Shown: piece after piece, positions 31,410-62,850 of the stretch
Numbering within the stretch: the stretch's first letter is position 1
Layout: every line of letters starts with the position of its first letter
Assembly: GCA_000827205.1 (NCBI GenBank)
Contig: KN832556.1
Location: forward strand, 475,436 to 539,435
Source of the DNA: Plicaturopsis crispa FD-325 SS-3
Lineage: Eukaryota; Basidiomycota; Agaricomycetes; Amylocorticiales; Amylocorticiaceae
Reading direction: 5' to 3'
Length of the DNA stretch: 64,000 nt
The notes under the pieces: model-generated
The model's database searches: none
Told to the model about the DNA's origin: nothing
The model's input: only the letters and a program-made list of their open reading frames with translations
Made by a program: the position numbers and the translations under genes

Positions 31410-31594
31410 ACCGTATTGAAGACTCAAGTCAAAAAGGATGGATTAGACGTTCACGTATACGTACCTTTGCGAATCTTCACGTTCGAATGAAATGGCGACG
31501 TGCACACGGCTTGCAGGCACTGCAAAGTTCAAACTCACAGACTCGGACTCGAGGACATAGACTCGAACCAGTGCCCGAAAACTACGCTACACAA
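31410..31594. other. Short spacer upstream of RAS-like copy 2
   Basis: Promoter side of copy 2, ending at the inverted repeat. No gene seen. Confidence 0.4.
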
Positions 31595-31778
31595 AAGATA
31601 ATCGTTTTGTCGCTCGGATTCGGGACTGGTGCATAACGCGGCCATTTAGGACGGTCAAAGTTCCGAATACCTTCCGGCCATCACATGACCAGAATAAAAT
31701 GGACTTAGAAAAATCGAGCACTCTCGAAAATTCAAACTTGTTAGACCGCATTTCTGGGGAGACAGAAAGTCTCGTTAT
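31595..31778 (-). repeat. Left arm of a ~180-bp inverted repeat pair
   Basis: Reverse complement of 33781-33957 with about 85-90% identity by eye, starting AAGATAATCG at the outside and ending at GACTTTCTGTCTC inside. The central 70 bases around TTCTGGTCATGTGA are almost identical. See the right arm. Confidence 0.75.
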
Positions 31779-32371
31779 GTATTCGTCGAGACGCCCCCGA
31801 GGTTTCGAGATGCGAAGCAACATTTTACGCGTGGTAATGTCGAAACAACGACTCCACCTGGTCATTTACCTCCTTCAACCCCGCGCTCACATCACGACGC
31901 CCGTCCATCTCTCAACCTCGTCTTACGGTCTTTCATTTCCTAGGCATGTAGCTGGAACTCGTGGATATCCTGTAGACTGTACCAGCTTACCGCCATTGAG
32001 TAGTTTCCACGACCGTGCAGGTAGCTTGGGAGTGGCGGCGGTGTTCTGTCACGTCGCGTCTCTAATTGCACGGTGCGCATACTCCAGCTTCGATCTGACG
32101 CAGATTGCGCTGACATCCTTCTATAACTGTCTAGTATTCCACCTGGATTGACCGTTCTCGAGAGGCTACGATAAACATGCCAGGAGCTATGCCGCTAGGC
32201 ACGCAGGATTGGAGCACCCAAGCCGTGAATGCGGTAGAGCATGCTTCCCGTCAAAGAGGAGGTGATATAGCCTGCTCCAATCCCTGGACCACTGCGGGAC
32301 TGAATTTCTCGACCGGTACGTCGTCAGCATTTGACTCACAGACATGGTACCGGGAGGGTCGTCCATTGACC
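31779..32371. other. Sequence between the inverted repeat arm and gap 1, no gene seen
   Basis: Open frames run into the N gap and cannot be judged. No domain recognised. Confidence 0.4.
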
Positions 32372-33320
32372 NNNNNNNNNNNNNNNNNNNNNNNNNNNNN
32401 NNNNNNNNNNNNNNNNNNNNNNNNNNNNNNNNNNNNNNNNNNNNNNNNNNNNNNNNNNNNNNNNNNNNNNNNNNNNNNNNNNNNNNNNNNNNNNNNNNNN
32501 NNNNNNNNNNNNNNNNNNNNNNNNNNNNNNNNNNNNNNNNNNNNNNNNNNNNNNNNNNNNNNNNNNNNNNNNNNNNNNNNNNNNNNNNNNNNNNNNNNNN
32601 NNNNNNNNNNNNNNNNNNNNNNNNNNNNNNNNNNNNNNNNNNNNNNNNNNNNNNNNNNNNNNNNNNNNNNNNNNNNNNNNNNNNNNNNNNNNNNNNNNNN
32701 NNNNNNNNNNNNNNNNNNNNNNNNNNNNNNNNNNNNNNNNNNNNNNNNNNNNNNNNNNNNNNNNNNNNNNNNNNNNNNNNNNNNNNNNNNNNNNNNNNNN
32801 NNNNNNNNNNNNNNNNNNNNNNNNNNNNNNNNNNNNNNNNNNNNNNNNNNNNNNNNNNNNNNNNNNNNNNNNNNNNNNNNNNNNNNNNNNNNNNNNNNNN
32901 NNNNNNNNNNNNNNNNNNNNNNNNNNNNNNNNNNNNNNNNNNNNNNNNNNNNNNNNNNNNNNNNNNNNNNNNNNNNNNNNNNNNNNNNNNNNNNNNNNNN
33001 NNNNNNNNNNNNNNNNNNNNNNNNNNNNNNNNNNNNNNNNNNNNNNNNNNNNNNNNNNNNNNNNNNNNNNNNNNNNNNNNNNNNNNNNNNNNNNNNNNNN
33101 NNNNNNNNNNNNNNNNNNNNNNNNNNNNNNNNNNNNNNNNNNNNNNNNNNNNNNNNNNNNNNNNNNNNNNNNNNNNNNNNNNNNNNNNNNNNNNNNNNNN
33201 NNNNNNNNNNNNNNNNNNNNNNNNNNNNNNNNNNNNNNNNNNNNNNNNNNNNNNNNNNNNNNNNNNNNNNNNNNNNNNNNNNNNNNNNNNNNNNNNNNNN
33301 NNNNNNNNNNNNNNNNNNNN
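32372..33320. other. Assembly gap 1 (949 N)
   Basis: Run of N. Content unknown; it lies between the two inverted repeat arms, as would happen if the inside is a multi-copy element. Confidence 0.99.
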
Positions 33321-33780
33321 GCTCGGTAATGGCTTCGAGTCGGTGTGACAGGCGACATCCGAATCGGACAAGTACCACTTTGCACTTGAATCTATCAGTG
33401 CTCCCTGCTGGCTGAGGAGGTAAGAATTCTTGTTTCTTGTCCATGGAACCATAACTGATAACATCCTTAGCTGTAGTCACCTCGATTGCGCGGGCCACGC
33501 TACAATCTTCAAGTTACGAAGCAGGGATCTGAGGATGGCCGCGCCGCACCTCGATGGAGGGCGCTCGCGGATAGCGATGTTACCCACATCCCATGCGACA
33601 TCTTGTTCAGTGCTAGGATAGTTTGAGGTTGGCTCTATCTGTGTATCTCGCGACAATCCGTCGACTCGGATATCAATTCTAGTAACCTTGCTCAACTGCA
33701 TACCATTTGAGTTGCCGTTGAACCACCTATAGGTATCATGATGTGCAACTTCGGGGGCATCTTAACGGGCACATTGCGAA
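33321..33780. other. Sequence between gap 1 and the right inverted repeat arm, no gene seen
   Basis: Minus-strand frames such as the one with DVAWDVGNIAIRERPP near 33600 show no known domain. Any gene here is cut by the gap. Confidence 0.4.
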
Positions 33781-33957
33781 GCTTTCTGTCTCTTCAGAAA
33801 TACGATCCAACGAGTTTGAATTTACAGAAGTGCTCGATTTTTTCTAAGTCCATTTTATTCTGGTCATGTGACGGCCGGAAGGTATTCGGAACTTTGACCG
33901 TCCTAAATGGCCGCGTTATGCTCCAGTCCCTATACAGCCAACTCGAACGATTATCTT
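33781..33957 (+). repeat. Right arm of a ~180-bp inverted repeat pair
   Basis: Pairs with 31595-31778. Both arms encode the shadow string SILFWSCDGRKVFGTLTVLN in one frame only because the DNA is nearly identical. The arms with the enclosed 2 kb could be long terminal inverted repeats of a DNA transposon; no target-site duplication is obvious next to them. Confidence 0.75.
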
Positions 33958-34319
33958 CGAGTGTCGGCTGTGAAATTTTGACTGCCTCGAGTCTATCGAG
34001 GACAAGGACTCGCGTTTGATCGTCGAGGCCAAAAAACTCTGAAAAATCGCGCTGTCCTGCGAGTTGTAGAGTCCTATATCCTGCACGCGATGTTCTACGA
34101 CGTGGCGAGTCTGAGTCTGTGGCGAAAACCTAGCGAGAACCACGCTACAAAGATTCATAGAAAAGTGGAGAAGGTTTTGGAAGCATCCGGAAAACGCGTT
34201 GTGCGCGCGTATCCGCGATCGTAAATAATCTGGATTCTGCACCTTGCATCTGCCGTTCATCATCTCCCCGTACTTTCCCTGTATCGATTTACTTCCCATC
34301 CTAATAACCGTCGTACAAG
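33958..34319. other. Promoter and 5' region of SSE1
   Basis: No gene seen. Sequence between the inverted repeat arm and the SSE1 start codon; no clear TTC/GAA heat-shock element array stood out. Confidence 0.4.
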
Positions 34320-36880
34320 ATGGCTGTCGTCGGTATCGACTTTGGAACGCTGCACAGCAAGGTGCGTGCCAATATTGTGGCGTCAGATGCAGAGACTGAC
34401 TTTTTTCGCTGAACAGATCGGTGTCGCCAGACACCGTGGAATCGATATCATCGTTAACGAAGTTTCTAATCGCGCTACCCCGTATGTTTTTTGTGCTGTA
34501 GGGATCACCTCTGAGTGCTCACTTTGCGATTTTTTTCAGATCACTTGTTGCTTTCGGGCCTAAACAGCGCGCCATTGGCGAGGGTGCTAAAACGCAGGAG
34601 ACATCGAACTACAAGAACACTGTCGGGTCCTTGAAGCGTCTCATAGGACGCACACTCACCGACTCCGAAGTGCAGGAGGTCGAGAAAAAATTCATCAATG
34701 CTAAATTGGTCGACTCGCAAGGGACCGTCGGTGTGGAGGTATGTTTTTTTCTTCAGCATGGCACTTTCCAGTGGGCTCACGCGCTTTTCAATAGGTCAAG
34801 TACCTTGGCGAGACCCAGCAGTTCTCCGCAACGCAGTTGGTTGGGATGTACCTGGGCAAGCTGCGCGACATCGCTGCCAACGAGCTCAAGATCGGAGTCA
34901 CTGATGTCGTTATTGCTGTCCCCGGATGGTACACCGACATTCAACGGAGAGCTCTCCTCGACGCTGCCAGCATCGCTGGTCTCAACACCCTTCGCATCAT
35001 CAACGACACGACCGCCACCGCCCTCGGGTACGGCATCACCAAGTCTGACCTGCCCGAACCGGAGAACCCTCGTCACGTCGTCTTTGTCGATGTCGGCCAC
35101 TCGAGTTTGTCCGTCGCCGTCGTCGCGTTCTCCAAGGGCCAGCTTATTGTGAAGAGCACGGCGTATGACCGCAACCTCGGTGGACGTGACATCGACTATG
35201 CGCTCGTAGAACACTTCTCCAAGGAGTTCGAGACCAAGTACAAGATCGACGTCATGAACAACCCGAAAGCCAGCTTCCGCCTTACCGCTGGATGCGAAAA
35301 GCTCAAGAAGGTGCTGTCAGCTAACGCTGAGGCGCCCTTGAACGTCGAATCTATCGTCAACGATGTCGATGCTACCTCCAAGCTCACCCGTGACGAGTTT
35401 GAGGGCCTCATCGCCCATGTTCTCGACCGCATCCCCGCCCCCCTCCTCGAAGCGCTCAAAGAGTCGGAGCTCACCCTCGACCAGATCGACGCCATCGAAC
35501 TTATCGGTGGCTCTACCCGTATTCCCTCCGTTCGCGCCAAAATCCAGACCGCATTCCCCGGAAAGACGCTCTCGACCACGCTCAACCAGGATGAGGCCAT
35601 CGCTCGCGGTGCCACCTTCTCCTGCGCCATGCTTTCCCCTGTATTCCGTGTTCGCGACTTCCACATGCACGACATCACGCCATACCCCATCAAAGTGCAG
35701 TGGGACGCATCTCAAACCGACCCTGATGACGACACCGAGCTCGTCGTGTTCCCCCGCGGCAACGGCATTCCCTCAACGAAGGTCCTCACCTTCTACCGTA
35801 AGGAGCCGTTTGACCTCGAGGCACGCTACGCTGAGACCGACCGGCTTCCGGGCAGTATCAACCCGTGGATCGCCAAATTCCAGGCGAAAGACGTTGGCCC
35901 CGACGCCAAGGGCGACCCCGCTGTAGTGAAGGTGAAGACACGCCTCAATCTGCACGGCATTGTGTCGTTCGAAGCGGCGTATGTCGAGGAGACAGAGGAG
36001 AAGGAGGAGGCCATGGAGGTCGATGGTCAGGCAGAAGGGCAGCCCAAGAAGAAGAAGATCGTGAGGAAGCGGGATGTCCCCTTCGTCAGCGGTGCAACTT
36101 CTCTGGACCCTTCGATACTGGAGAGATTGAAGGAGCAGGAGGCGCAAATGCATGCTGCCGACAAACTCGTCTTCGACACAGAGGTAAATATGATTTCTGC
36201 TACTGCGCGAAGAAATCTTACTTACCACACGCTTCCCATAGGACCGCAAAAACGCGCTGGAGGAGTATGTCTACGACACTCGTAGCAAGCTCGACGAGCG
36301 TTACGCCGCCTACGCCCAAGCACAAGAAAAGCAGAAGCTACTCGTCCAGCTCCAAGAGGCAGAGGACTGGCTGTACACCGAGGAGGGCGAAGAGGCCACC
36401 AAATCCGCATATGTGGAGCGCCTCGACTCTCTCAAGGTCCTCGGCGACCCCATCGCGTTCCGCTACCGCGAAAACGAGACCCGCGCAAGCGTCATCGCCC
36501 AGCTGCGGGAGACGCTCAACAAATACATGTCGGAAGCAACCTCGAATGAGGAGCGCCTGTCGCACATCTCCGACAAGGACAAGCAGTCCGTTATCGAGAA
36601 GGTCGCGACAGTGCAGAAGTGGCTGGAGGACCAGATCGCACGGCAGGCGGAGAAGCCCAAGAACGTGAACCCTGTCCTGACGACCGAGGAGATCTTGAAG
36701 AAGAAGGACGAGGTCATCTACCATGCTACACCCATTCTCTCCAAGCCCAAGCCCAAGCCCCCCGTTGTCGACTCCAAAACCGAGGCGCCGAAGAGCGGGC
36801 AACAGACTCCCGACCCTGCCGCTGGTGGTGCGAAAGCCGAGCCTGAGGCGCAAGGACCGTCGGAGATGGATGTGGACTAG
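34320..36880 (+). CDS. SSE1: HSP110-type chaperone, nucleotide exchange factor for Hsp70 (Sse1)
   Basis: Cytosolic Hsp110 that exchanges nucleotide on Hsp70 and holds unfolded clients. Exons 34320-34361, 34417-34481, 34540-34738, 34795-36183 and 36242-36880. The ATPase domain starts MAVVGIDFGTLHSK (Hsp110s have L or V where Hsp70 has T-N-S), then NEVSNRATPSLVAFG, VIAVPGWYTDIQRRALLDAA, RIINDTTATALGYGI, VFVDVGHSSLSVAVV and ELIGGSTRIPSVRAKI. The substrate domain has an extended acidic loop (VEETEEKEEAMEVDG) and KKKKIVRKRDVPF. The helical C-terminus includes EDWLYTEEGEEATKSAYVERL and ends SEMDVD. Total about 775 residues, normal for the family. Confidence 0.96.
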
Positions 36881-37153
36881 AGGGTACGCCGTCGAGGAAG
36901 TTGTTTCGAATAGAACACAAGATTTGTAGTAGAACCACCATACTTACTAGTATCATTTTCATTGGCATTGTTCATCGTGCATCCCTGCTACTTGACGCTT
37001 GAGCCTGACCCTCCTGAATTCTGTGCTCAGTGCATTTGGCCGTCGGTCTTTATAATTTCCTCCGTTCTGTACATTTGACCCCGCGGCGCGAGTTCAACGG
37101 CGGATGGACTCTACCTGGCTTGTACTTATACCACTGCCATTTCATTCGAGGAC

Positions 37154-38120
37154 ATGTCAAAGTCAATGAGCAGTAAAGGTGCGTATGATATACCCTCGTA
37201 ATTCAGCGCTCCCAAGTGTTCAAGATCGTCTGTCACAGAAAATATGGACCACTGGAGGATCACCGTGCTAGGTGACCACCATTGCGGGAAAACTGCCTTG
37301 ATAGACCAGGTGCGTACTTGCACCATTCACGTTGACAGTGAATTTTTACATGCATCGCCTTTTCGTGCATAGTTTGTGCTCGGTTGCGTCGTCGGTGGGC
37401 TGCCTTTCCGCGGACCTTCGCGGTCGAGGTGAACGCCTGACTAACTTCTTGACGACGTCGCGGTGCTATACAGACGTATGCGTTCGCAAGTTTTGGACCT
37501 GTGGGGATGAATGAGACTGATAGGATAACCTCACGACAGGTTTTTGATCCAACCCTGGAGGAACACTGTAGAAAACAGATTGAAGTAGACAAGAGAATGT
37601 CTTTCATTGAACTCATCGACGCGATGTGTGAAGGTACAGTCTCCTTTCCTCAATACACCAATGTAGAGCTAAAAAGGGTCTCTACTGCAGAGGAATACGC
37701 GAGTCTACGTGATCAATGGATACGGTAAGCATGGACATCGCAGACCCCGCGTCCCGAGGCCGAGAAGTCTTGCCGTCCAGTGAAGGTCAAGCGGCCATCC
37801 TGGTGTATTCGGTCACGTCGCGTGCATCATTCGAGCGAGTCGACGCTCTGCGACAGGACATAATACGCGTCAAGCCTGAAAAGCCAGTGTTCGTGCTGGT
37901 CGGCACGAAATGCGACCTGGTACCCCAGCGGGAGGTGTCTCACGACGAAGGGGCGCAACTGGCGCGCACTTTTGGCTGTGAGTTTATGGAGACGTCTGCG
38001 AAAACCGGGGAAAACGTCCACTTGCTCTTCTCCAACGTCGTGCGGGCGCTACGGGCGGCGGATGCTGCAGCATCGCAGGGGACGCGAAAGAGAAGAATAG
38101 ATATGTGCACAATTATTTGA
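37154..38120 (+). CDS. Divergent RAS-like small GTPase, copy 3
   Basis: Same family and intron positions as the two minus-strand copies about 6 kb away. MSKSMSSKENMDHWRITVLG; P-loop GDHHCGKTAL; FVLGCVV plus one base; proposed 2-nt exon AC at 37474-37475 flanked by CAG and GTATGC; VFDPTLEEHCRKQIEVDKR with FIELIDAMCE; EEYASLRDQWIR; EGQAAILVYSVTSRASFERV; VFVLVGTKCDLVPQREV; CEFMETSAKTGENVH; C-terminal CTII CaaX box. Switch II reads DAMCEEEYASLRDQW: overall length is conserved but DxxGQ is DAMCE, so the conserved Gly and Gln are Cys and Glu. G4 is TKCD as in Rho proteins, while the effector loop is RAS-like. Confidence 0.75.
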
Positions 38121-48386: not shown

Positions 48387-49400
48387 ATGAGTCTCCAGAC
48401 GGCGGAGCAGTCTCTTCACGACCAGGTTAATCTCGGACGACTTGTCAAGAGGCTAGAGAAGTCTGTGTCCGACGACGACTGGAGCGAGGATGCCAGGCGC
48501 CACGACAATTGGCTCAAGGCACAGCGCGTCCTTCAGGCAAGAGCAGGGAGGCCCCCGATGCTGGATTTACGCTAAATGTTTGCCTTTCAGAAAGTCAAGT
48601 TCGGGAGGAAACTGCTGAAAAGTGTGGAGGCGCATGATTTGGACCCGACGCCGTGAGTACCATGCGTCGCCGCCAGTGCATGTTGTTGAACAAGCTTGAT
48701 TCAGGCAGTCGCTAAAGCGGTATCGGGATGTGCACTCTACGCTGGACCGTATAGAGGGATTTTTTGTTGCCGTGCAGGAGGTGAATTGTGTTGAACTTTT
48801 GCGCCTTGATACTAACATAGTGTTTTGCAGAAAACAGCGCCGAAAGTGACTCGTCCAGAGCCTATTCTACCAAAGATTCCCCTACCCGTAAACACTGAAG
48901 CCAAGGCACTCTCGCTATCTACGTCGCCCGAGGACCTCACAGAAGAGCCTACGGTGAAACTCGCTGCGGACGATCTCCTCCTTTCCCCGTCGGACACATC
49001 TGCTCTGGCACCACAGAGCGCCAGCCTCCTCTCAAGCATACCAACGACCAGCCTTCCGCCACCATCTCAGACCGCATCCGCGACGAAATCCACCGCCGTC
49101 CCAGCGTTTATACAGAATTCGAATGCGTTACAGCAGGAGATGTCCGAGCAACTCGCGCAGATGGCGACGCAGCTAAAGCGGAACGCGATGCACTTTTCCG
49201 AATCGCTCGCGCGTGACCAGGCCGTGGTTGACGAGGCGCAGGAGAAACTGGAAGGGAATTACGATGTCATGAAGAAGGAGCGCGTACGGCTTAGGGACCA
49301 CAGGGGGAAGAGTGGATCCACGACGTGCTTGGTTCTCATGAGTATGCTAGTGGTTGTCGTTGCTTTCCTCTTGACGTTCTTTGTGATTCGCTTAACATAA
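48387..49400 (+). CDS. USE1: SNARE protein USE1 (ER/Golgi retrograde transport)
   Basis: USE1 is the ER-resident SNARE used by COPI vesicles returning from the Golgi. Four exons: MSLQTAEQSLHDQVNLGRLV...AQRVLQ, KVKFGRKLLKSVEAHDLDP, SLKRYRDVHSTLDRIEGFFV, and a long last exon. The SNARE helix region is ALQQEMSEQLAQMATQLKRN and SLARDQAVVDEAQEKLEGNY, followed by the C-terminal anchor CLVLMSMLVVVVAFLLTFFV with two residues after it. The first intron appears to have a GC donor (CAG|GCAAGA), the others GT. The last 430 bp of this gene are duplicated across gap 2 (49813-50242), which I read as an assembly artefact rather than a second gene. Confidence 0.87.
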
Positions 49401-49511
49401 CACTCTATACTTTGCTTGCTAGGATACTCAATGGCCTCCTGTAATTCCTCGGTGCACATCCTTTTTGCCTGCCCGCGGTCCCTCGAAAAACAGGTGCAGA
49501 CTCGGATTATG

Positions 49512-49812
49512 NNNNNNNNNNNNNNNNNNNNNNNNNNNNNNNNNNNNNNNNNNNNNNNNNNNNNNNNNNNNNNNNNNNNNNNNNNNNNNNNNNNNNNNNN
49601 NNNNNNNNNNNNNNNNNNNNNNNNNNNNNNNNNNNNNNNNNNNNNNNNNNNNNNNNNNNNNNNNNNNNNNNNNNNNNNNNNNNNNNNNNNNNNNNNNNNN
49701 NNNNNNNNNNNNNNNNNNNNNNNNNNNNNNNNNNNNNNNNNNNNNNNNNNNNNNNNNNNNNNNNNNNNNNNNNNNNNNNNNNNNNNNNNNNNNNNNNNNN
49801 NNNNNNNNNNNN
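49512..49812. other. Assembly gap 2 (301 N)
   Basis: Begins directly after GGATTATG at 49504-49511, the same 8 bases that flank the KDZ element. The right side restarts inside USE1. Confidence 0.99.
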
Positions 49813-50242
49813 CGACGAAATCCACCGCGTCCCAGCGTTTATACAGAATTCGAATGCGTTACAGCAGGAGATGTCCGAGCAACTCGCGCAGATGGCGACG
49901 CAGCTAAAGCGGAACGCGATGCACTTTTCCGAATCGCTCGCGCGTGACCAGGCCGTGGTTGACGAGGCGCAGGAGAAACTGGAAGGGAATTACGATGTCA
50001 TGAAGAAGGAGCGCGTACGGCTTAGGGACCACAGGGGGAAGAGTGGATCCACGACGTGCTTGGTTCTCATGAGTATGCTAGTGGTTGTCGTTGCTTTCCT
50101 CTTGACGTTCTTTGTGATTCGCTTAACATAACACTCTATACTTTGCTTGCTAGGATACTCAATGGCCTCCTGTAATTCCTCGGTGCACATCCTTTTTGCC
50201 TGCCCGCGGTCCCTCGAAAAACAGGTGCAGACTCGGATTATG
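49813..50242 (+). repeat. USE1: Repeat of the USE1 3' end beyond the gap (probable assembly duplicate)
   Basis: Matches 49082-49511 base for base, apart from one missing base near its left edge (CCACCGCGTCC against CCACCGCCGTCC). It holds only the last ~86 codons of USE1 and continues through GGATTATG into the transposon. No promoter or 5' exons exist on this side, so it is most simply the same locus assembled in two overlapping contigs. Confidence 0.85.
50235..50242. repeat. Target-site duplication of the KDZ element, left copy
   Basis: GGATTATG, identical to 62843-62850 on the other side of the element. Length 8 is that reported for Zisupton/KDZ elements. Confidence 0.9.
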
Positions 50243-50556
50243 CACCTGTGACTCCCATATGATGGGTGTTGTTAGACCTGTTATCGTGGGGGTCTCGCAC
50301 GGCTAAGTCGGCTCAAATTTGCTGATCTACCGCCTCCTTCAATAAATGCTCGTTATCGATCACCTGGCACTTGTAAGATTTCCATGAAATAGCACTGTTA
50401 GGTAGCCCTAGAGCACGTAGTGACATCCAAGCGCCGATCGACAAGGCGCCTAGAGCGTGCGCCGGGCGTCGTCGTCGCCAAACACGCGAGCTCGCTGTTC
50501 CCCACGACGAGCACGCGTTTTTGCTCAGTTTTTCGATTCCCGCCGCCGTACTTATG
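50243..50556 (+). repeat. Left terminal inverted repeat of the KDZ element
   Basis: Reads inward CACCTGTGACTCCCATAT, then GTGGGGGTCTCGCACGGC and TCAATAAATGCTCGTTATCG, up to CTCAGTTTTTCGATT near 50540. Pairs with 62533-62842. The outer ~130 bp are nearly identical; the inner part is more diverged and has small indels. Confidence 0.9.
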
Positions 50557-50633
50557 TGGTTGGAGCGCAATTACTCCGGGCCTGTTCTTAGAGATAATAT
50601 ACTTTGTTATTAAGTAGAACAATACACAGTGTG

Positions 50634-52627
50634 CTAATGAGGTCCCGAAGATTCGTCGCTAGACGAGTCTGAGTCCACGATAGCTGCGCTTTTGGGAGCC
50701 TTCTGCACCCTTCCCTTGCCCTTGGACGCCCTCGCCGTGCCTCCATTGGTCTTTCTCGCCCTCTTCGCCGATCCCTGAGGCTCAGCTTCAGTATCTTCAG
50801 GACCGAGCGCTGAGGCCGACGTGCTCTTCCTCTTGGTACCCTTGTCCGATCGTTGCTTCCGTGGCGGCTTCTCGACGGTCTCGCCCCGGTCACGGCGTTC
50901 CTCCAGGTCGGCGAGATGCGAGGCAAGCTGACCCTTCGTCATCTTCTCCCAATGGCAGGCGCCAGATTTCCAGGCATCTCGTAGTTTCCGGATGTCACCA
51001 ACGGCGCCGATAGCAGAGGGGCTGACGAATTTGACGTCCTTCGGCCAGCCTATGATCCGAACACTGTATTTCTCGACGATGTCCTTTTCGTAGTTGCGGT
51101 AGCACATAAGGATAGACCGGACGTGCGTAGCAGACTCTGTACACGGCTAGGATCAATGCATGTTCTTCTAAAACTAAAGGAGAATCTTACTGAGTGCTGT
51201 TAGGATCATGCGCGTACATTGCCTGCGCACATTTGCTAGGTTGTCACGCTCGATAATATCTGTTGCACCGTTACCGCGGTTAGACACAGGGCAGTGAATG
51301 AGGCTCGAAGGACTTACTCTGACTAAGGGCACATGCCCACTGTTCATACTGCCGAACGATGGTGTCGGGATCCATCTTCAAAACGTCCTCCCAGAAATCC
51401 ATCGAGTTGTGCGTGCCATAGTACGTTGCTTGGGCAGTGTCGTTGACGTGGCCTCGGGTCAAGAAGAAGCAGGCATATGCCCCTGTACGACTTGCCAGAT
51501 TGTCGAGCTACAATGTGTCGAATGCGCACATATTAGCATTTGTATACTAAGTGATATTCCTAGGCCAAAGGATACGAGCTCACCAACTTGATTGTCGCTT
51601 CGACGGTGGCTAGTACATCGCGAGCCGCAGCGGCGTTGTTAGCGCGTAGTCCGGTAAACTTCTTCTCGCGATGCTCTTCGAGCTTCTCGAGATAACTCTT
51701 TTTCTCCGCCTTGGTCAGGTTTTTCATATCCGGATCGTTTGCAACCAGCTCTGTTAGCTCGGCAAGATTACGGCGACTACCTGTGGGTAGATCTAATGAT
51801 AGTCAACGACCCGCAATCACCGAAAATGTAACAAGCTCACCGGCATTGACCTCCTCGGCCTTGGCGTGTATGAGCGCGTTTTTCAATGAAACCTTGCGAG
51901 TACTCTTTGTGCGCGTATGGATCCCGATGAGCTCTTCCACCTCCTTGGGATGCCTGTCGAACATCGTGGCAATTTCTTCAACCCTAGCCTCCATATCTTT
52001 GACGACCTTGTGGATGGCATCATTCAAGGCTTTCGTCCTGTCCGCGCGCTGATCGCGTGCAATTCCCTGCGAGGATTTCTGCGCATCCGTGAGGCGGCCG
52101 CGTCCAGGTCGAATGGAGAGGACAGGTCGACCGGGGTTGCGGTCCTTCCAGGACGATTCGTTGGCGTTGTCGTCACGTAGAGCCGTGTGTGATAGGGCAG
52201 CTTGCAATGGCGGATCGGCGGACTGCTCGGATACTGGTGACGGTGGGCGGGCCAACGAGACATCCGGAGGCGGGGATGATTCGTTGTCTAGGTCTGTGTT
52301 GCTACTTGAAGCAGACGGCATAGATGTGAGACCGCTGAAGAGGCCACGGCGGTCGTAGTCAGGTGTAAGAGACTGCACTGCAGCCAAGTTCGGGTCCGCC
52401 TGATCGTAGTAGGCATTCTCGAAGCCCTGCAGACCAGCTGTAGGTAGAAGTTGATATGGGGGAACTGGGTGATAGAATGAATCGTCGAAATCTGCTGCGT
52501 GGTTTATATTGAATTGGAAACTGTCGTGTCCGAGGCCAAGAGGGGCCTCGCTCGTACCCGGCGGGATGGGTTGTAGAAAGTCGAGGCTCTCTAAAAAGCT
52601 GCCCGAAAATGTGGAGTGGTCGTCCAT
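50634..52627 (-). CDS. Uncharacterised KDZ-element cargo protein, basic C-terminus
   Basis: Lies wholly inside the transposon. Exon 1 (52627 to about 51845) encodes an acidic/Ser/Pro-rich start (MDDHSTFSGSFLESLDFLQP) and a helical part with TKALNDAIHKVVKDMEARVE and TRKVSLKNALIHAKAEEVNA. Following exons: RRNLAELTELVANDPDMKNL, KKSYLEKLEEHREKKFTGLR, then TGAYACFFLTRGHVNDTAQA with TYYGTHNSMDFWEDVLKMDP and RQYEQWACALSQ. The last exon has VEKYSVRIIGWPKDVKFVSP, AVGDIRKLRDAWKSGACHWE and a Lys/Arg-rich tail (RKQRSDKGTKRKS) that could be a nuclear signal, ending SSDESSGPH. I recall similar proteins, with the G-W-P-K-D-V and F-W-E-D-V blocks, as an expanded family in agaricomycete genomes, but know no function. 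A DNA-binding or transposition-accessory role is only inference from its location. Confidence 0.7.
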
Positions 52628-53721
52628 GTGTGAAGGGGTAGAAGGACGGCGACAAGAGCGGCATGCGGGAGTTGGAAGAAAATCTGCGGCGAGTGCGCCA
52701 CACGCAAAGCGCCGATGTCACGTGTCGCCCGTCGCGCTGAACAGCGATAAGTATATTTTGGCTACCGTTTTGCACACAACTCACGATGCTTCAGCTGTGC
52801 ATCTCGCGCAATCCGGCGGTGTGTGAACAGAACCAGAAATTCTGCGACCAAAGTCTGGCGGTCGATGCGTCTAATTGTTTGCCAGCTCAGTACGAGCCTT
52901 GTAAGTTGTTGACAACAATCAAGCTACGCACTGGTTTGCCAAAGTATAGCTTCCATAAATTCCTGATCACAGAGTTGATGCCTGAAGACGATGGCCTGTT
53001 AAGTTACTTGAGCGGTAGTATGGCCTATAACCTGACTGCACCTGAGGAGACGTCAAACTGGTGACGAATATAGTACTATTGGATGAGCTGTTAGTAATCT
53101 TAAGCCTCGGTGATCAAATCGACGACGTACCTAGCGCAATTCGCACTCACGGCGGGCTCAAATACATTCTGCTGCAAAGGGGACAATAGCGATCCCTTAC
53201 TGCTGGCCTGAACTACCGGCGTAGGCTACTGCTGCAACATGCTGTGTGGCGATGAGTATTAGAAAAGTTGTACCATGAGTATCAAAGTAATCAGACGCAC
53301 ATATACGAGAATCCGATGCCCTCGAGGCGACGGCACCGTCGGTGCTAGCGGGCGTTTGTGGATCCTATTCATAACACTTTCCTACTTTGGACGTTGATTT
53401 GTTTCCGCGTCGGAGTTCGAAAGTTCAGCTCAGCAGACGGAACCTTGACCTCCTCAAGCAACCGTCAAATGCTCTCTCTCTTCGACTTCATGCCCCAATC
53501 TTCTCACAAGTAGCGGGGTACATCATGCGCCTTGCTCCTCCTGCACTGAAAGGTTAGTCTCATTATTTTTTTGTCTCTCAAACGAGGCTGTAGGCTGCAA
53601 CGGACGAAGTTTCGCTGCTTCAATCCTGGACCTGCGGGCGGACTCTTGCGCAGCATGCAGCCTTGATATTCCCTTGTCAGCCGCTTGCTATTTTGCTGAC
53701 TTCTGCTTGTCTGAAATTTAG
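52628..53721. other. Spacer inside the KDZ element between divergent cargo genes
   Basis: Upstream of both the uncharacterised gene (-) and the dioxygenase gene (+), so it holds their promoters and perhaps the first dioxygenase exon. The frame at 52786-53064 shows no domain. Confidence 0.45.
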
Positions 53722-55540
53722 AAGCCGTCTGCGACATTCTCGGTGAGTTTTTCCAATGCCTCTATGCTCATAGTATCTAACGTGTTTTCTTTGTGGTCTA
53801 CGCGACAGATTCATCGTTCCGACGTGTACGTGTTCGTCTTTATGTTTGAGACATATCAGCTAACTTTTTTTACGCGTAGACGCGCACTGGCAAGAAGTTT
53901 TCGCCTTGGGCAGCACCGGTCACGGCGGCCACTGGCGCGAACTTCAACTTCGATAGCCTACTCCTTAACGCCATAGTCGCAGAACACGACCTCGCCGATG
54001 ACGACTCCGAGGGCCAGGACCTCGACTACGAAATCAACTTTGACTCCCCCACACCCCTTTCTCCGTTGCCAGATGCATACGCGGATGCCAGCACGTCAGC
54101 CCCGCCGCCTTTGGATTTAGATGCGCAGGCCGCATGTTCGCACCCAACCACGAGCAAAGACACTCCGCACACTTCACGCCGACCACCCACAGTAAAGCCG
54201 TTTCATCCCTCAAATCGTGAATACCCGGACGGCGAATTTGAGAAGGGCCACCGCAAAAATTCGCACAATAGGCGCCGTGCTCAGAAGCGCAAGCGCGAGC
54301 GTGAAAGTGCGCCGTACGGTGAATACCGGTTGCGACCGTCGGTCGTCAACAAATATGTCCGGCCAGCCGTTGCAATCGAGACCAACCTCGACACCACGAA
54401 GCTCCCCCACACCGTCAACGCGTACACTGGCGGAAGGGACACGGGCGCTTTGCGAAAAGTCTACACACTCGACGAGCTCAAGAAGCTCGGCTTCAAATAT
54501 GAGCCTTGGGACGGAGGGTAGGGAATTTTAATTGTATCTGCTATGCTATATGCTAACACGTGTGTGTGTAGCGACTCTAGGCCAATAACCGACGACCGCG
54601 GCAAGGTCATCGGGGCTCTTTGCTGCCCACCGGAGGATGCAGACTGGCACGATGGTGCCGCTGCCGCTTTCGACGACGCCCGTCAAAGAATGCGTTTCCC
54701 CAAGAAAGATTCGAATCACCGCCGTGGGACATTTTGCGCGCAGGCGGTGGGATCGTCTTTTGGTGGTGGGCAGAAGGTATGTATCCATTGCGCCACGTCT
54801 TAGGGAAACGTCTGATTCGCTCGGTATAGATGCCCGGGAATCTTGTCAATACTGCCGTCAACACCGCCATTCTTGCTAGCCTACTGAGCAACATCTACAT
54901 CATCCGCATAGCCGGCTTTGCTTCTGGTAAGTCCTCGAGTGCTATGTTTTGTTGCTATCTCGCTAACACTCCTTTCCTAGCCGCATTCGCAACATGGGCC
55001 CCAAACCTCTACACCTACTATGTTGAACACCTCAGGCCCCTCCACACGACGTACCCACGCCTCAAGCGCAACTTCATCAACAGTGTCTTTGCTGCCGCCA
55101 CGTTCAACTTTGGTCCGGTAACCTGCACGTATCCTCACCGCGACCCAGGTAATCTTCCGTTCGGGTGGTGCGCAATCACAGCCCTGGGCAAGTTCGATCC
55201 AACGCGCGGTGGTCATCTTGTTCTCTGGGATATGCACCTTATCATCGAGTTTCCGCCAGGTACCACGATTTTAATCCCTTCGGCAACCATCCGACACTCA
55301 AATGTGGCAATTCAGAAGGGCGAGACTCGCTTCTCGTTCACGCAATACACGGCAGGCGGCCTTTTCCGCTGGGTCGATCAAGGATTTCAACCTAGCTCAT
55401 CATTTCTAGCTGCACTGTCAAGTGAAGAGGTCAAGGAGGAGAAAGTTCGCGCAAAGGTCCAGGAGCGCTGGAATATGGGAGTCAATCTTTTCTCCGACCT
55501 CACTTCCCTGCAACAGCCACCTAACTTTGACGCAGTATAG
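53722..55540 (+). CDS. TET/JBP-type 2-oxoglutarate/Fe(II) dioxygenase, KDZ cargo
   Basis: TET/JBP enzymes oxidise 5-methylcytosine or thymine in DNA. The readable part starts with short exons (KPSATFS, IHRSD) that join in phase to TGKKFSPWAAPVTAATGANF at 53881; the true start codon upstream is not resolved. A disordered acidic then basic stretch (RRAQKRKRERES) leads to the fold: WDGGDSRPITDDRGKVIGAL, HRRGTFCAQAVGSSFGGGQK, MPGNLVNTAVNTAILASLLS, RIAGFASAAFATWAPNLYTY. The catalytic double-stranded beta-helix has TYPHRDPGNLPFGWCAITAL (Fe-binding H-x-D), GGHLVLWDMHLIIEFPPGTT, LIPSATIRHSNVAIQKGE (distal His) and TRFSFTQYTAGGLFRW (the 2-oxoglutarate-binding Arg). All expected ligands are present, so the enzyme may be active. 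A 54-nt in-frame intron lies at 54927-54980. Transcribed in the same direction as the transposase. Confidence 0.85.
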
Positions 55541-55625
55541 CTATTTTCTTGCATGTATCCATACTTACCAGGTTAACATTGCGGTGATTTCTTGGACAAT
55601 CGCTAGGTTTTCTATTTGCTACTAT

Positions 55626-55801
55626 GTTCGCTGTACGTTTGCGATAAGTTTGCCGTGAGTTTGCCATGAGTTCGCTACACGTTCGCCATAAGTTCGCCAT
55701 AAGTTCGCCATAAATTCGCCATAAATTCGCCATACGTTTGCTATGGATTCGCCATATGTTCACTATGGATTCGCTATGAATTCTTGATGAATTCGCTAAG
55801 T
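55626..55801 (+). repeat. 11-bp minisatellite, about 16 units
   Basis: Tandem units of the form GTTCGCCATAA, with three perfect central copies and drift towards both ends (GTTTGCCGTGA, ATTCGCTATGA). Lies between the dioxygenase stop and the first small gene of the KDZ element. Confidence 0.85.
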
Positions 55802-55895
55802 ATGTAACCGCCCAGTAACTCTCCGGTTTACTAACCTGTCTCCTTCGCTGAGCATCTCTGCCTCGTAACACCTGCTAGTCCGCGACTCCCTATAG

Positions 55896-56139
55896 ATGGG
55901 TAAAGGACACGGAAACAGTCATAAAAGAACGTCCGAGAGCGCCCGCTTGGCAACAAATCGTTGGCTGAACAAAGACGGGTAAGTACTTAGTTGCTGATTT
56001 CATGCCTTCGCGTCAGTTTCTCATCGCGCTGCCCAGTGTCCGCGAAAAACAAAATGAGAAAGCCCGCGTACGCGCCGCAAATAATCGTGCACGGTACGCC
56101 CATGATCCTATGTACCTGGACGATATCATATTGACATGA
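55896..56139 (+). CDS. Small basic protein of the KDZ element
   Basis: Two exons (55896-55978, 56037-56139) give about 61 residues: MGKGHGNSHKRTSESARLAT, NRWLNKDG, VREKQNEKARVRAANNRARY, AHDPMYLDDIILT. The second exon uses acceptor GCTGCCCAG. Rich in Arg/Lys/Asn and helical, like the basic segments of small DNA-binding proteins, but no family is recognised. Its TGA overlaps the ATG of the next frame (ATGA at 56136-56139). Confidence 0.5.
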
Positions 56140-56927
56140 ATCCGTCATGCCGTGTTCAATGTCCATGTAGTAAAAAAGCTGCCGACTCGGAGAAGACTCC
56201 AGAGCCCGCCAGTGCTCAGGCTAGGCATTCTAGCACTCCAACTACTATCGGCAGCACTGTGCAGACTGTTTACCGAGGTCGTGCCTCACCACCTGCCATC
56301 CCCGGACCATCCATTTCTATGACAGCAGCCACTGGCACAAACCGTACAGAACAGACCATTGTCGACCGGGGCCGTGCCACACTGGCATCTAGTGGCGACC
56401 GATCCATTCCCTCGCACCGCCCTCGACGCTCTACGAGCCGTAACAGCCTGAGTCAATCGAGTCTTGACGAAGGCGACCTTTTCGACCTCGACTCGGACAA
56501 GTTCGTCACACTTGAAGAACCGGAAGATATCGTGCATAACATACGTCGCTGCCGTCTCGTCGTTATGAATTGGCAGTGTGGATGGGGAGGCGATAACAGC
56601 TTCTGGGAGAAGTACTTCTCTGAGCTGCTTGAGGAGGCACGTCAGAGGGATCACGATGGTAACAGCCCGGGTCTGGTCGATTTCTTCAAGTGTTTTGAGG
56701 CGCACATCGACAAGGGAAAGGACATTCTGGAGGATTTGAAGGGGGTTGCTGAGTATGCTTGCAATTCTACACCTGACGAGATTCGTGACCTCTTTTTTCA
56801 AGGTTTCGAAATGGGCATGGCTGTGACCTCTGAAGTCAAATTTTTCGAGATGAAGCTTCACCAATATGCTCCTGCAATCCCCTTGTCACAAGTTACTGAT
56901 TATAGATCTTACGGTAGCCGATACTGA
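56136..56927 (+). CDS. Uncharacterised 263-residue protein of the KDZ element
   Basis: Single open frame. MNPSCRVQCPCSKKAADSEK has a CxVQCxC start that might bind metal; then Ser/Thr/Pro/Arg-rich low complexity with two YRGRASP/DRGRATL-like units, and a folded-looking C-terminal half: VVMNWQCGWGGDNSFWEKYF, SELLEEARQRDHDGNSPGLV, IDKGKDILEDLKGVAEYACN and FFQGFEMGMAVTSEVKFFEM. No known domain. The frame is preserved without stops for 790 bp and sits just before the transposase. Confidence 0.55.
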   Translation: MNPSCRVQCPCSKKAADSEKTPEPASAQARHSSTPTTIGSTVQTVYRGRASPPAIPGPSISMTAATGTNRTEQTIVDRGRATLASSGDRSIPSHRPRRSTSRNSLSQSSLDEGDLFDLDSDKFVTLEEPEDIVHNIRRCRLVVMNWQCGWGGDNSFWEKYFSELLEEARQRDHDGNSPGLVDFFKCFEAHIDKGKDILEDLKGVAEYACNSTPDEIRDLFFQGFEMGMAVTSEVKFFEMKLHQYAPAIPLSQVTDYRSYGSRY

Positions 56928-57115
56928 CTTAAATGTGCTCTATGCTTTGAAGTACTACTAGAAATACCAGTCTACATGTATGCTACGCTACATACATTGC
57001 AACTTGAAGCTGGTGAAAAGCGCTGCGGCGCGTGCAACGAGACTGCCAGTGAAGTCGCGACGCCAGACGCGGTGTTCTTGTGCGCCACCGCCTCTTCCTC
57101 TTCTCATCGACTGGC

Positions 57116-60100
57116 ATGGGCAAGGGGCGCGTCAGAAACCACACCAACCTTTCTACCAGGAAGGTGCGCCATCCAGGACCATCTCGCAATGCATCAGGAT
57201 GCAGTATTCCACTTACACATGAAGTCTTGGGACCCGTGGCGCTCGCAAGGCGGGCAAAGGAATCACACGAAAAGCGCAAGATGCGTTTACAGGGTGAGCT
57301 CAATTCGACACTACTTGCCGTAGGCAGAATTTAACCATGGTATATTGTTATCTGTAGAGATGACCGCAGATGAACGGCGTGCACTTGAAGCACTGCGAGA
57401 TATTCCCATTGCAAATGACGACGGCAGCCACACTTTCGAGGACGTCAACATTGAAGACATCCTCGATGGCTCCGAGCCCTTGAATATTAGCCATGCTGGA
57501 GGAGAGTTTGAGGCACTAACTCAAGAACTCAATAGCGAATTATGGAAAAAGTAAGCGCACAGTCACCTGAGCTGCGACCCTCCCCAACTTGAACTGATTG
57601 TTTGATAGTCAATACCGTCGTGTACCTAAGAACATCGACTATCGTACGCGTCGTGACCGGCAGGAACGTCGCGATCGTGCATTTGACATGCAGATGGACG
57701 CGATCATGGATGCCTACCTCATTTGGAGCTTAGATCGAGCCGAAAACCAAAATGCAGGATTTTTCACAAGGCTAGCAGATCAAACCCGTGCTGCGGGTGC
57801 AGATTCTGGATGCACGACGGTCACAGTTGTTGATGTATACAGTGAGTACGGATTTATGTTGTCATATAGATTACGGTGTACTGAATCGTCTTTTCTAGCC
57901 GTTCAGAAAATCCTTCTCCCCATCCTACCCACTGACCGATTCATCGCATCGGCATTTGTGAGGCAGGGTGTCATGCCTTGCTCTCCTATCGCTCCCACTG
58001 TAGGGATTACAACCGACGCCCTCGAACTGTACCGCGTAGCCCATCTCCGCGACCCTCATTTCTCTATTCAGGCCTTTGTTAAAACACTATGCGACCTCCA
58101 TTCAGTATGGAGACTTTTACATCCTGTCTAGTGTGATAATCTGACGGATTCTTTCCCTTTAGGTTCCGTTCCAGAGACACTTGTCTCGTCAATTCTCCAT
58201 AGCATTCGACCTCTATCTCTCCATCCGAGCAAGTGTCGAACAGGCAGTACACACTGCTTTACATCGCAGTTCGCCCGATTGGCGTCTGAAGCATGCCTGC
58301 CCTGCATGCACGTACAAGTTAAAGGACGAGGAACCACTTCTTTTTTCAATGCTATACACGCAGGACGGTAATGATTCCTTGCGGCGTGTAGTGGCACGCT
58401 CACCGTCAGACGACGACGGTAAGCTTGGTTCATCGTCGGAGTTACCGACTGCGCGGAATGTGCAAGGCGACCGTTATCTGTCACGCGAATACGTCAACAA
58501 GTGGGCGAACAGAAATCTTCAAAACGCGATGGGCGACTCGGACGATCCGGAGAATGTAAGTACACCATGACTCTGATGTTCAACCTTCAAGTCGGCTGCA
58601 CTGCTGATTTGATTTAATTACAACTAGGATAAGAGCTCGGACACTCCATGCGGAAGCCGCTGGAAGAACATGAATCAAGCTATCCTTGACAGAATGTGGG
58701 GTGTGTTCGACGAAACTGGCATATTTTTGGCTTTATGCCGCCACGGATTTTCCCTGCTTATTGCAGACATGGTGCGGAGCGGTGAGCTGTAAGATCGCAA
58801 GTGCTACTACCCATTCAAGACACTGACGGTGGCTCAAAAAGTGCCAAATATCCTCTGGCCATCACCAAGAAGCTTCTCAGCACTTTCGGCGACGGTCTCG
58901 GAGGAGGATACGACATCATCAGGAAAGCTTCGGCCGTCTGAACAGGTCTGAACGGTATGAAAGCTCTGGAATTGACTGAAAACTTCGAAAAATTCTGAAT
59001 GTTGCTCAAATTTGCCGTTCAGAACAGGTTCAGATTGGTTGAATTTTCAGAGTGTTCATTCTGGAGTCAGAGCGCTCGCTGAAAAACTCAGATGGTACTT
59101 CAGATCACTCAGACCCAACTTAAATCATACAAACTCGAAATCAGGAAAAGTGTTTGCATTACAAGTCAATAAAACCGATATCACAAGAGAGGCTTGAGCT
59201 CGAGACACCGTACAAAGCAAGCTACTAGAGTACTGAAAGGATCTGGAACTTGAAGTCTCCGGGATAGCTCGAGTATATGGGCCTCGCCGTAGATAAAGCT
59301 ACTTAGCATATGTATCTGGGGATCACGAAACAACAGCTTACCATATTTCCTGTCGCATTGCGCCGCATGTGCCCCAGTGGCTTCACATCCGTCAGCACCT
59401 TGTAGCTGCAAGCGGGAATGTCCCGTGGTTATGTGCTGCAGAGGTTGGTTTGCGCCGTGCAGGCTCGCGCTCGCGCCACGCAGTGGGATTGTGTTTGTCG
59501 GCTTAACGTGTTGATCCAGGGGAGGGTGCCAGCGAGGGATGATTCATGTGGAGTGAAGCAGTAAGTAGCAGAAGGGAGGACATGGACAAGCAGGGAATCG
59601 AACGAGTGTCATGGTGCTCAACGTTCAACGTCGTTTAGCATGCCACGTCGGTCAAAGTGACTGTGGCACTGTGTGAAATTCAAGCGGAGCTTGAACTGCG
59701 TTTGCCACGTCTCGCATTTGCGAAGTTCAATTTCGTTCAACTTCACCTCGTCTCACCTCTGCTCTCGATGTTGACCTTGGCGACTCCTCGACATAACTTC
59801 CGTTCAACGCTTGCCCTTCCCACTGCACGCTGACGTCGACTAGCACCACACGCGCGCTTTGAGGTTTTCGGCGTTGCTGCTCGGAAACAACGTCGCGGGG
59901 CACGGGCGTGACAGGCGGTCCTCTCGGAGGCGCTGCATGCACTGCTGTACCATTGAAGCTGCTGGCCAGGAATGCGAGACGAGTAGCGCGTTTCTGAAAG
60001 GCTCGTCCTTCTCTTGCCGATGATGCATTGAAATTGGTCTACTAATCTGTTGCTTATCATGCCTTCAATCTCTTCGATTACCTTAGGAACGCAGGCGTGC

Positions 60101-62489
60101 GCGCGCGCCAATCACAAGCTCGTACTCTCGGATGGCCATTCCTCTCGTGTTCGCCGTGTCTCCTCCCTCTAATGTCTAAGAAAATTTGGTACGTCGATCT
60201 CATTCTTGCATACTCAGTGCGATACTAAATTGTCAATAGGTATATCTCGTGAAACGTCTTTGCTTGGTGTCGCCCGTGCTACGCTTGACATCGCGGGGCG
60301 CTTCATCCATACCAGCACCCATATCAATAGCCTGTACCGTTTGTTTGTCGTACTACCTGTTTTATCGGCTTGTATCTTAGTCTCCATATATGAATATCAT
60401 TTGCTTTTACCCCTACTGCCTGTTGTTGTCTGAGCTAAGAATGCCAGTCTGAATGATTTGGAACCTGTCTGAATGTCGGTCTGAAAGTGATCTGAAAGTG
60501 TTGACCTGAATGCCATCTGAAAGAAAATTGTTCCCGAAAGTCGGTCTGAAAACTGTCTGAAGGCATCTGAAGTCAGAAATGGACCTGCTGAACTCAGACT
60601 GCCAATCTGACCGTCTAACCGTCTGAAACGGTCTGAAATCAGGGGTTTCAGACCGTTTCAGACGATTTGACTTTTCCTGATGATCGGATGCAAATTCAAG
60701 ACCACACTCAACAACAGCGCACTCGGGGCTCGCGCTCGCGCGCTGCATCACACAAGCTTAGTGGGTGCATTCCACGGGCACGCACACCAGCGGCTATGTC
60801 AACTCTCGCACCTTGCCACGTACGTCAAGGGCTTAGGCCTCGAAGACCTCGAGGGGTGCGAGCGGGCATTCTCCAAGTCAAATGCTCTTGCACCCGCTAT
60901 CCGGTATGCCAGCATCTTCCATCGACAGCAGGCGATTGCGACGTACTTTGAACACAACGATAATTTTGAAATTTATGCAAACCTCAGTGCGTGTATTGCA
61001 CTCCATGTCATCACTGCCATACCTAATTCAATCTCGTAAACTTCACTAGCAACATTCCTTTTCAATAACTACAAGCAAGCACTCAACATTCTCTCGGATG
61101 GTGATGTCGCCCTTCCGCTTGCCATGGCCGATCTCAATATCACGAGTCGTCAAGTTTTCGAGGTCTGGTTAGCCGAAGAAAAAGAGTATCTCCTCGGCCT
61201 GCAAAAGGAGCCGGAGGAGGAGACCTTACAGATGGAGTACTGGCAGAAACTGATAAACCTACACGGAAGCGAGTGAGTCACGTAGTATTACCGGCACCCT
61301 CGTACATGTCAGCTTACCACACCTTCCGTAGAAAGGGCCTAGTGGTCGCGGCACCCACAGTCTGGGATATAACGACGCCTGACACTCACGAGCCGGTGCT
61401 CAGGGACACCACTCGCACTACCGAAACAACGCGTCGTCATGCAGTCGAGAACTACGAAAAGGACTTGAAAGCGGTTCAAGTCCTCGAATTGAAGCTCGAT
61501 ATCCAAGTACGCTGGGTTGCAACTGATCCCGAATGGCAGAACGCCGGTCGGCTCGTAGCCATGCGCAAATATCAGCGTGCGCTAGACTCCCTCGAAGGCC
61601 TCATTGTTGCGCGCATGTTCGAGCTGTCAAAGATGAATCGATCACAAACCGGTAAGTCCAGCCTCGAAAGTCAGATGCAATAATTTGCTTATCAGTCACC
61701 CTATGGCCAGGCTACGCATTGCGGAAACACATCGGCAAGGCCCTCCAAGCACGGTCGTCAGCTATCCGTACTGCATTGGATAGGTACAACACCGCTGCCG
61801 CATCCCTATCTCCACCTCGTCGCATGCTCGAGTGGAAGGAGGTGGTCGAGTACGCGTTCCTAGCCGACTTCGACCTCCTTCGCGATGCTCGCCAGGACAT
61901 CTCGCAACGACCGTGGGCGACACCTGCTGGGCGATTGGCGATGGACATGCACTTCAAGATGCACCGTGCCGAAGAAGAGATTCAGCGTCTCAATGTCGAG
62001 ATCCGCCGAGTTGCCACATACCTTCGTGATGAAGACAGCTATCTTCGTGCATGCGAGGCGCAGGTGCGCCCGTCGAATGCAGCCCTCGCTTACCAGATAT
62101 CTGTACATCGTCTAGAACGCGGCCGCTTCAACTCCCACCACGTCCGACGACTCCAGGATATTGCCAAGCTACCTGGATTCAGTGGCACCATCTCCCCTGG
62201 CCACAGTGAGGCCACAGGTCCAGGTGAAAGTGCGAGCCGACCATATCCAGTCCCCAGTACGCCGATGCCGGCGTCCCCGATGGCTCTCGACCTGCCGGCA
62301 GACGATCCAAGGGTCTCACGCACTAGGAGTAATACCAGAGCGTCGGCACTCGAAGATGTTCCCCCAGATGGCGAGCGGTACGCAACAGACACCCTGGAGG
62401 AACTAGAGAGGGACGAGGATGAGGATTCATCAGTTGAAGAGGTGTCTCAAGCGCTGTACACCATCTTACATGTATCAGGCGACGAGTAG
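57116..62489 (+). pseudogene. KDZ transposase, split by a nested 1.76-kb element
   Basis: RNase H-like transposase of the KDZ superfamily, CxC-type. First part (57116-58917): MGKGRVRNHTNLSTRKVRHP; EMTADERRALEALRDIPIAN; DAIMDAYLIWSLDRAENQ; PTVGITTDALELYRVAHLRD with FSIQAFVKTLCDLHS; the zinc-cysteine block LKHACPACTYKLKDEEPLLF leading to LYTQDGNDSLRRV; CGSRWKNMNQAILDRMWGVF; CRHGFSLLIADMVRSGEL; KYPLAITKKLLSTFG, ending GGGYDI. After the insertion, at 60686: GCKFKTTLNNSALGARARAL, SLVGAFHGHAHQRLCQLSHL, GLGLEDLEGCERAFSKSNAL, FHRQQAIATYFEHNDNFEIY, then long helical exons to HVSGDE (stop 62489). The conserved GYDI-GCKF junction is where the element landed. Apart from that insertion both halves read open through normal introns. 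No function expected unless the insert is spliced, for which there is no sign. Confidence 0.85.
58918..60682. mobile_element. Non-autonomous DNA transposon with TCTGAA subterminal repeats, inside the KDZ transposase
   Basis: Ends ATCAGGAAAGCTT and (inverse) CATCAGGAAAAG give short terminal inverted repeats; ATC at 58915-58917 and 60683-60685 looks like a 3-bp duplication (a 2-bp AT reading shifts the ends by 2-3 bases). Removing it restores the conserved GYDIGCKF string of the transposase. Both ends are packed with TCTGAA/TTCAGA hexamers: left about 58935-59110, right about 60430-60670, where they often read GTCTGAA or GTTTCAGAC. The ~1.3-kb middle has no transposase and no recognised gene. 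Dense subterminal hexamers are typical binding arrays for an absent transposase. Confidence 0.75.
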
Positions 62490-62532
62490 CTGTATGCATG
62501 TTACTAGTATAGCATCAGCTCCAAAAACGAAC

Positions 62533-62842
62533 TAAACGCATGTAAATACGGCGGTGTGAATCGAAAAACTGAGCAAAAATCCGTGCTCGTCGTGGAGAAC
62601 AGCGAGCTCGCATGTTCAGCGACGGCGACGCCACATGCCACGCGGGCTGATCGGCGCTTGGACGCTACGTGCTCTAGGATTATCTTACAGGGCTATTTCA
62701 CGGAATTCTCGCAAGTGTCAGGCCATCGATAACGAGCATTTATTGAAGGAGGCGGTAGATCAGCAAATTTGAGCCGACTTAGCCGTGCGAGACCCCCACG
62801 ATAACGCCTCTAACAACACTAGCTATATGGGAGTCACAGGTG
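62533..62842 (-). repeat. Right terminal inverted repeat of the KDZ element
   Basis: Reverse complement of the left repeat; the outer end is GGGAGTCACAGGTG at 62829-62842. Starts about 45 bp after the transposase stop codon. Confidence 0.9.
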
Positions 62843-62850
62843 GGATTATG
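62843..62850. repeat. Target-site duplication of the KDZ element, right copy
   Basis: GGATTATG directly after the right terminus, matching 50235-50242 and the last eight bases before gap 2 (49504-49511). Confidence 0.9.

Follow-up and report, generated by a model that had tools for sequence, protein, structure and literature searches.

A KDZ transposon family of Plicaturopsis crispa with long inverted repeats, a predicted TET-fold dioxygenase and accessory genes

Introduction

Complete transposons that carry TET genes, among them Kyakuja and Zisupton elements, have been described by Kojima 2025 (PMC12730594), the main text of which is the basis for all comparisons with that paper made here. 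The function of transposon-borne TETs has, according to the same text, not been experimentally validated. Here we analyse a 64,000-nucleotide stretch of the genome of Plicaturopsis crispa FD-325 SS-3 (contig KN832556.1, positions 475,436 to 539,435; hereafter the window), in which a KDZ transposon of 12,600 bp, element A, occupies positions 50243-62842. A sequence-only reading of the window had implied that such a unit, with a dioxygenase travelling alongside the transposase, was novel; its main claim is in fact known in kind from Kojima 2025, where complete TET-bearing KDZ elements already appear.

Element A is like the TET-bearing Kyakuja of Agaricomycotina in being an agaricomycete KDZ element with TET cargo and 5'-CA...TG-3' termini. 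However, the two Laccaria bicolor Kyakuja families described there lack inverted repeats and make 7-bp duplications, whereas A has an 8-bp duplication and repeats of about 310 bp, and the TETs of these families are of the AG type (CcTet-like), while the dioxygenase of A is without the AG residues. An 8-bp duplication combined with inverted repeats is instead a likeness to Zisupton, including TET-bearing Zisupton, a comparison made by description only. The main text of PMC12730594, from which Table S1 may differ, does not name P. crispa and mentions neither long inverted repeats on TET-bearing Kyakuja, nor a TET class with the residues found in A, nor a GTF2I-like partner. Relative to that text, the new features are the combination of long repeats and an 8-bp duplication, an enzyme of predicted TET fold that has neither the AG nor the PE signature, and a possible GTF2I-like accessory protein.

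Ends and copies of the element

The inverted repeats of A, which the sequence-only reading had put at about 310 bp, are 85% identical on alignment (E 4e-83), and their outermost 18 bp are identical. The 8-bp duplication that it had reported, GGATTATG, directly adjoins both. The unit also lies between the two genes it had named: the left-hand flank encodes Use1 (PF09753, E 2e-12) and the right-hand flank, consistent with a beta-mannosidase, the N-terminal domain of glycosyl hydrolase 2 (E 3e-14).

When the P. crispa genome (33.2 Mb, 49 contigs) was searched with the left repeat, four places were found, namely both ends of A and both ends of a second element, B (C2:447519-458099; 10,581 bp). B is gap-free, has its own 8-bp duplication (CGCACTTA) and contains the same four genes as A in the same order. 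It is the further copy with matching ends and cargo that the sequence-only reading had suggested looking for, and it bears out the claim that the dioxygenase and the uncharacterised gene move with the transposase. A third element, C (C3:197770-209799; 12,030 bp), which lies on C3, the contig of the window, was first noticed by its matches to the KDZ, ORF3 and basic proteins, its boundaries then being set from its ends; it has 139-bp repeats at 97.8% identity and the 8-bp duplication CATCCAAA. All six ends of A, B and C start CACCTGTG, giving the termini CACCTG...CAGGTG, while the three duplications are all different and the inverted repeats range from 139 to 312 bp. No contiguous empty site with a single GGATTATG was found in the P. 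crispa genome, the only genome examined, in which a 219-nt query of the joined flanks of A matched the flanks only (the left one twice, owing to the flank duplication described below).

A scan for 14-bp inverted ends (at most two mismatches) adjoining an 8-bp direct repeat returned A and B as the best pairs of their regions, and no comparable element ends in six other TET-like or KDZ regions. The scan left out the dioxygenase places on C25, C12, C10 (two), C19, C9 (two) and C26. One 7-bp pair on C8, with two mismatches and 16 kb apart, was taken as chance. A, B and C are a genuine, well-bounded transposon family.

The transposase, basic protein and ORF3 are present in all three elements, and the dioxygenase in A and B. 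None of 12 dioxygenase proteins matched C3:197770-207204 (tblastn, 1e-2), and no dioxygenase codon maps anywhere on the whole of element C.

Between A and B, the ratio of nonsynonymous to synonymous substitution rates (dN/dS) is 0.10 for the transposase, 0.09 for the dioxygenase, 0.27 for the basic protein and 0.23 for ORF3, the values for three of the genes being rough because their dS approaches or exceeds 1 (comparisons with element C are saturated). Judged by these ratios, all four genes are under purifying selection between A and B, which indicates that cargo and transposase have stayed together. The intergenic stretch at 2401-3000 of A no longer aligns with B (38-40%). Over the first 1,500 bp the two elements are 89-98% alike, and over the remaining windows outside a nested insertion 53-90%, a mosaic pattern suggesting that their left ends have been homogenised by recombination or gene conversion.

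Transposase

The earlier call of a KDZ transposase holds: PF18758 (KDZ) is matched at E 3.5e-73 by a rough exon-joined protein of B, and both pieces of the A transposase pass the cut-off. The A gene is in pieces: the alignment to B halts in the KDZ domain and resumes beyond a stretch that we infer, from this alignment, to be a nested insertion. Its termini and duplication make it PlavakaB-like, the PlavakaB signature being CATCA...TGATG termini with a 2-3 bp duplication (PMC12730594), and its length is short for an autonomous element. A genome search with the insertion gave 21 matches, including its own place and its own palindrome. A 59-bp near-palindrome lies at its right end (60613-60671).

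The sequence-only reading had called A complete-looking, a description that does not extend to autonomy, the transposase being split. No further lesions were found in the A exons, though their absence is not proven, and A could presumably now move only with a transposase supplied by another copy.

Forty-three genome matches were condensed to 31 KDZ loci. In a tree of the KDZs of this genome, which includes 27 of the 29 loci read (those on C17 near 40 kb and C5 near 1663 kb were omitted, the match ending by profile position 138), A, B and C form their own clade with an ultrafast bootstrap (UFBoot) value of 100. This clade falls outside another (99) that contains the KDZs adjoining CcTet-type TETs.

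Dioxygenase

The dioxygenase P0039 has no Pfam match at all, Tet_JBP (PF12851) included. Searches of Pfam and of PDB sequences had led to the verdict that it was not a TET, which was overturned by comparison of its predicted fold: TET structures fill rows 1-11 of the VIA results and rows 1-25 of those from Foldseek. By predicted fold the enzyme belongs to TET/JBP, as the sequence-only reading had proposed. It differs from CcTet, NgTET1 and human TET2 (PDB 7w5p, 4lt5 and 4nm6), with identities of about 14-16%. The open stretch upstream of the P0039 exons (53880-54512) is also conserved in B.

A search for relatives gave 525 proteins at E <=0.001; the best 120 of these are, where named, from agaricomycete fungi, among them a Laetiporus protein that reaches 61%. 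In an alignment of 31 sequences, the HxD...H triad and the arginine that binds 2-oxoglutarate (2OG) are nearly invariant: H163 is present in 31/31, D165 in 30/31, and H216 and R227 in 30/31 with one gap each. The PE-type HxE motif is absent from this alignment, which has HxD in 30 sequences and HxN in one. By spacing and hhalign, all 31 have Asn at H+5 and Cys at H+11, in place of the AG-type Gly/Ser and Asp that three PF12851 proteins of P. crispa, taken as a control, do carry. Asn occupies the position of hTet2 Asn1387 in every aligned relative. This substrate-position residue, as in human TET2, suggests 5-methylcytosine (5mC) rather than N6-methyladenine (6mA) as the likely substrate. Cys stands in all 31 where CcTet has Asp337 and hTet2 has Thr1393.

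Within the P. crispa genome, 28 matches were condensed to 15 places of this dioxygenase class, none of which is among the six PF12851 places. The dioxygenases of A and B are 93% alike, and the other places reach at most 53%. Ten of the 15 places are KDZ-linked. The dioxygenase at C24:89025, with a KDZ at C24:83575, is the sole member of the class beside a third-clade KDZ. A 6-kb stretch that is 92.6% identical between C8:906584-912596 and C13:9522-15520 contains a member of the class with no KDZ within 10 kb, and is perhaps another type of transposon with this TET.

Basic protein and ORF3

The exons of the basic protein gene were placed by exact match to P0001. A search with the protein returned 36 proteins, one being P0001 itself and the rest coming largely from Suillus, with Pisolithus, Leucogyrophana and Imleria also represented. 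Residues about 394-483 may form a GTF2I-repeat-like domain, with the core G-[WL]-P-x-x-[VI]-x-F-x-x-P. In predicted fold and motif core this region may resemble the GTF2I repeat of TFII-I, from which it differs in belonging to a fungal transposon protein. These features are suggestive of a GTF2I-like domain, the sequence similarity not being significant. Among the titles and abstract openings covered by a literature search, no paper joining GTF2I with fungal transposons was found. A Pfam match to PCRF (E 0.52) was taken as chance.

Four accessory genes had been attributed to A, two of them small open reading frames (ORFs). Three are supported, namely the dioxygenase, the basic protein and ORF3; the first small ORF, ORF3, is a gene conserved between copies, and the second gave no match to any conserved gene. 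P0037 is the single frame 56136-56927 of ORF3. A search with ORF3 found two proteins only, those of A and B, and weaker relatives in the genome lie in element C (33%) and at C2:8112-8747 (24%). A Pfam match of ORF3 to DndE (E 0.11-0.12) was taken as chance. At C2:5529-8747, near a contig end, a diverged dioxygenase of the class adjoins the latter ORF3 relative, with no KDZ match near.

Table 1. Features of element A and its target site (window positions).
Feature	Position	Strand	Details
Left target-site duplication	50235..50242		8 bp, GGATTATG
Left terminal inverted repeat	50243..50554	+	312 bp, starts CACCTGTGACTCCCATAT; 85% to right repeat, 95% to left end of B
Basic protein gene (P0001)	50634..52627	-	581 aa; exons 51839-52627, 51584-51778, 51319-51507, 51192-51257, 50637-51134
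TET-fold (predicted) 2OG-Fe(II) dioxygenase	53880..55540	+	P0039 exons 54543-54776, 54830-54925, 54980-55537 plus stop
ORF3, orphan protein	55896..56927	+	pieces matching P0038 of B: 55896-55979, 56038-56094, 56268-56918
KDZ transposase gene	57116..62489	+	about 10 exons by analogy with B; interrupted by nested insertion
Duplication of nested insertion	left 58915..58916, right 60683-60684		2 bp, AT
Nested insertion	58917..60682		1,766 bp, termini CATCAGG...CCTGATG; inside KDZ domain between GGGYDI and GCKF
Right terminal inverted repeat	62543..62842	-	300 bp
Right target-site duplication	62843..62850		8 bp, GGATTATG

Elsewhere in the window, 29375-38081 contains several 200-330-bp repeats of 82-86% identity, both direct and inverted, beside a gap of 949 N (32372-33320).

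Proposed function and alternatives

We propose that A is a cut-and-paste DNA transposon of the KDZ superfamily equipped with its own anti-silencing module, a reading we regard as fairly probable. The KDZ transposase would bind the inverted repeats, move the unit and make the 8-bp duplication. The dioxygenase would oxidise 5mC on the element, allowing its genes to escape silencing by methylation. The basic protein may bind the DNA of the element, most naturally at the inverted repeats, and may bring the dioxygenase or the transposase there, with ORF3 as a putative core partner. Such a system would be analogous to the anti-silencing protein of the plant Vandal (MuDR) elements (PMC12730594), which is likewise element-encoded and gives sequence-guided relief of silencing; targeting in A is only proposed. 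A bolder version, which we think unlikely, is that the long inverted repeats are bound by a protein of GTF2I fold, through which an oxidase like TET2 and specific for 5mC is brought to the element, as a fungal counterpart of the Vandal system, and that the GTF2I repeat of TFII-I has relatives, and perhaps its source, in fungal transposons.

Several results weigh against an anti-silencing module, or against the identity given to its parts. Given that element C has similar ends but lacks a dioxygenase, transposition as such does not require the enzyme, and five of the 15 dioxygenase-class places have no KDZ within 10 kb. Three of the dN/dS ratios are rough, as stated above. PF12851 is reached at 0.01 by only three of 31 relatives of the dioxygenase (best 1.2e-6), and the PDB sequence search, by single protein or by profile, finds no TET; the three PF12851 proteins of P. 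crispa find CcTet in the same search at 4e-29, which shows that the search is effective and the divergence of the class real. The residue hTet2 His1904 (CcTet Arg393) has no clear counterpart in the enzyme, the position counted from R227 being Ala. Finally, the basic protein does not reach the cut-off of PF02946 (GTF2I), which is matched by one of 12 domain sequences at E 0.13.

It is quite possible that the basic protein is HMG-like, or an unrelated DNA-binding or structural protein, rather than GTF2I-like. The weak GTF2I scores fit this, as does the fact that HMG_box_2 (E 0.11, one sequence), S4 (0.042, one) and the Cdc6/ORC lid (0.077, three) score no worse when those 12 domain sequences are scanned against Pfam, and a divergent HMG protein was reportedly noted in such elements by Iyer et al. 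in 2014.

Somewhat less likely, though still to be taken seriously, is that A is a real transposon whose dioxygenase, rather than demethylating its own element, works across the whole genome, has another base or RNA as its substrate, or places marks on DNA that serve host regulation. Retrotransposons of Coprinopsis and Laccaria also contain oxidised methylcytosine, which suggests that the enzymes do not act on specific targets, and different modified bases are produced by other members of TET/JBP (PMC12730594). Against this, the invariant Asn at the hTet2 Asn1387 position points to 5mC, and the linked DNA-binding-like protein may offer a means of targeting.

It is highly improbable that the dioxygenase and the helper genes were merely trapped as bystanders between a pair of transposon ends, or that they are neutral passengers. 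The lack of the enzyme in element C and the five places without a nearby KDZ would be expected of bystanders; however, the four genes recur in identical order in two independent insertions, their coding sequences have been kept whereas alignment is lost over an intergenic stretch, and two thirds of the dioxygenase-class places are KDZ-linked.

The left flank of A includes 301 N (49512-49812) with a 431-bp copy of the USE1-region end on each side, 99.8% identical (window 49081-50242), the first copy stopping exactly at GGATTATG, where the left contig ends. The duplicated flank and gap look like an assembly artefact, probably two unmerged contigs; reads would likewise diverge there if the site were unfilled in some of the nuclei sequenced. 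Although this gap ends exactly at the insertion site, we give almost no credence to A being an assembly chimera, because the window is without N from 49813 to its end, placing the whole of A and both its ends on one gap-free stretch, and because B is of the same design.

Implications

With A and B carrying the enzyme, element C lacking it and all ends defined, P. crispa offers a natural comparison within one genome. The dioxygenases appear to form a TET class with a pocket seemingly closer to that of human TET2 than to that of CcTet, which makes the question of 5mC versus 6mA testable, and the basic protein is a candidate targeting factor. The proposed division of labour between a transposase, an oxidase and a possible DNA-binding partner is likewise open to test.
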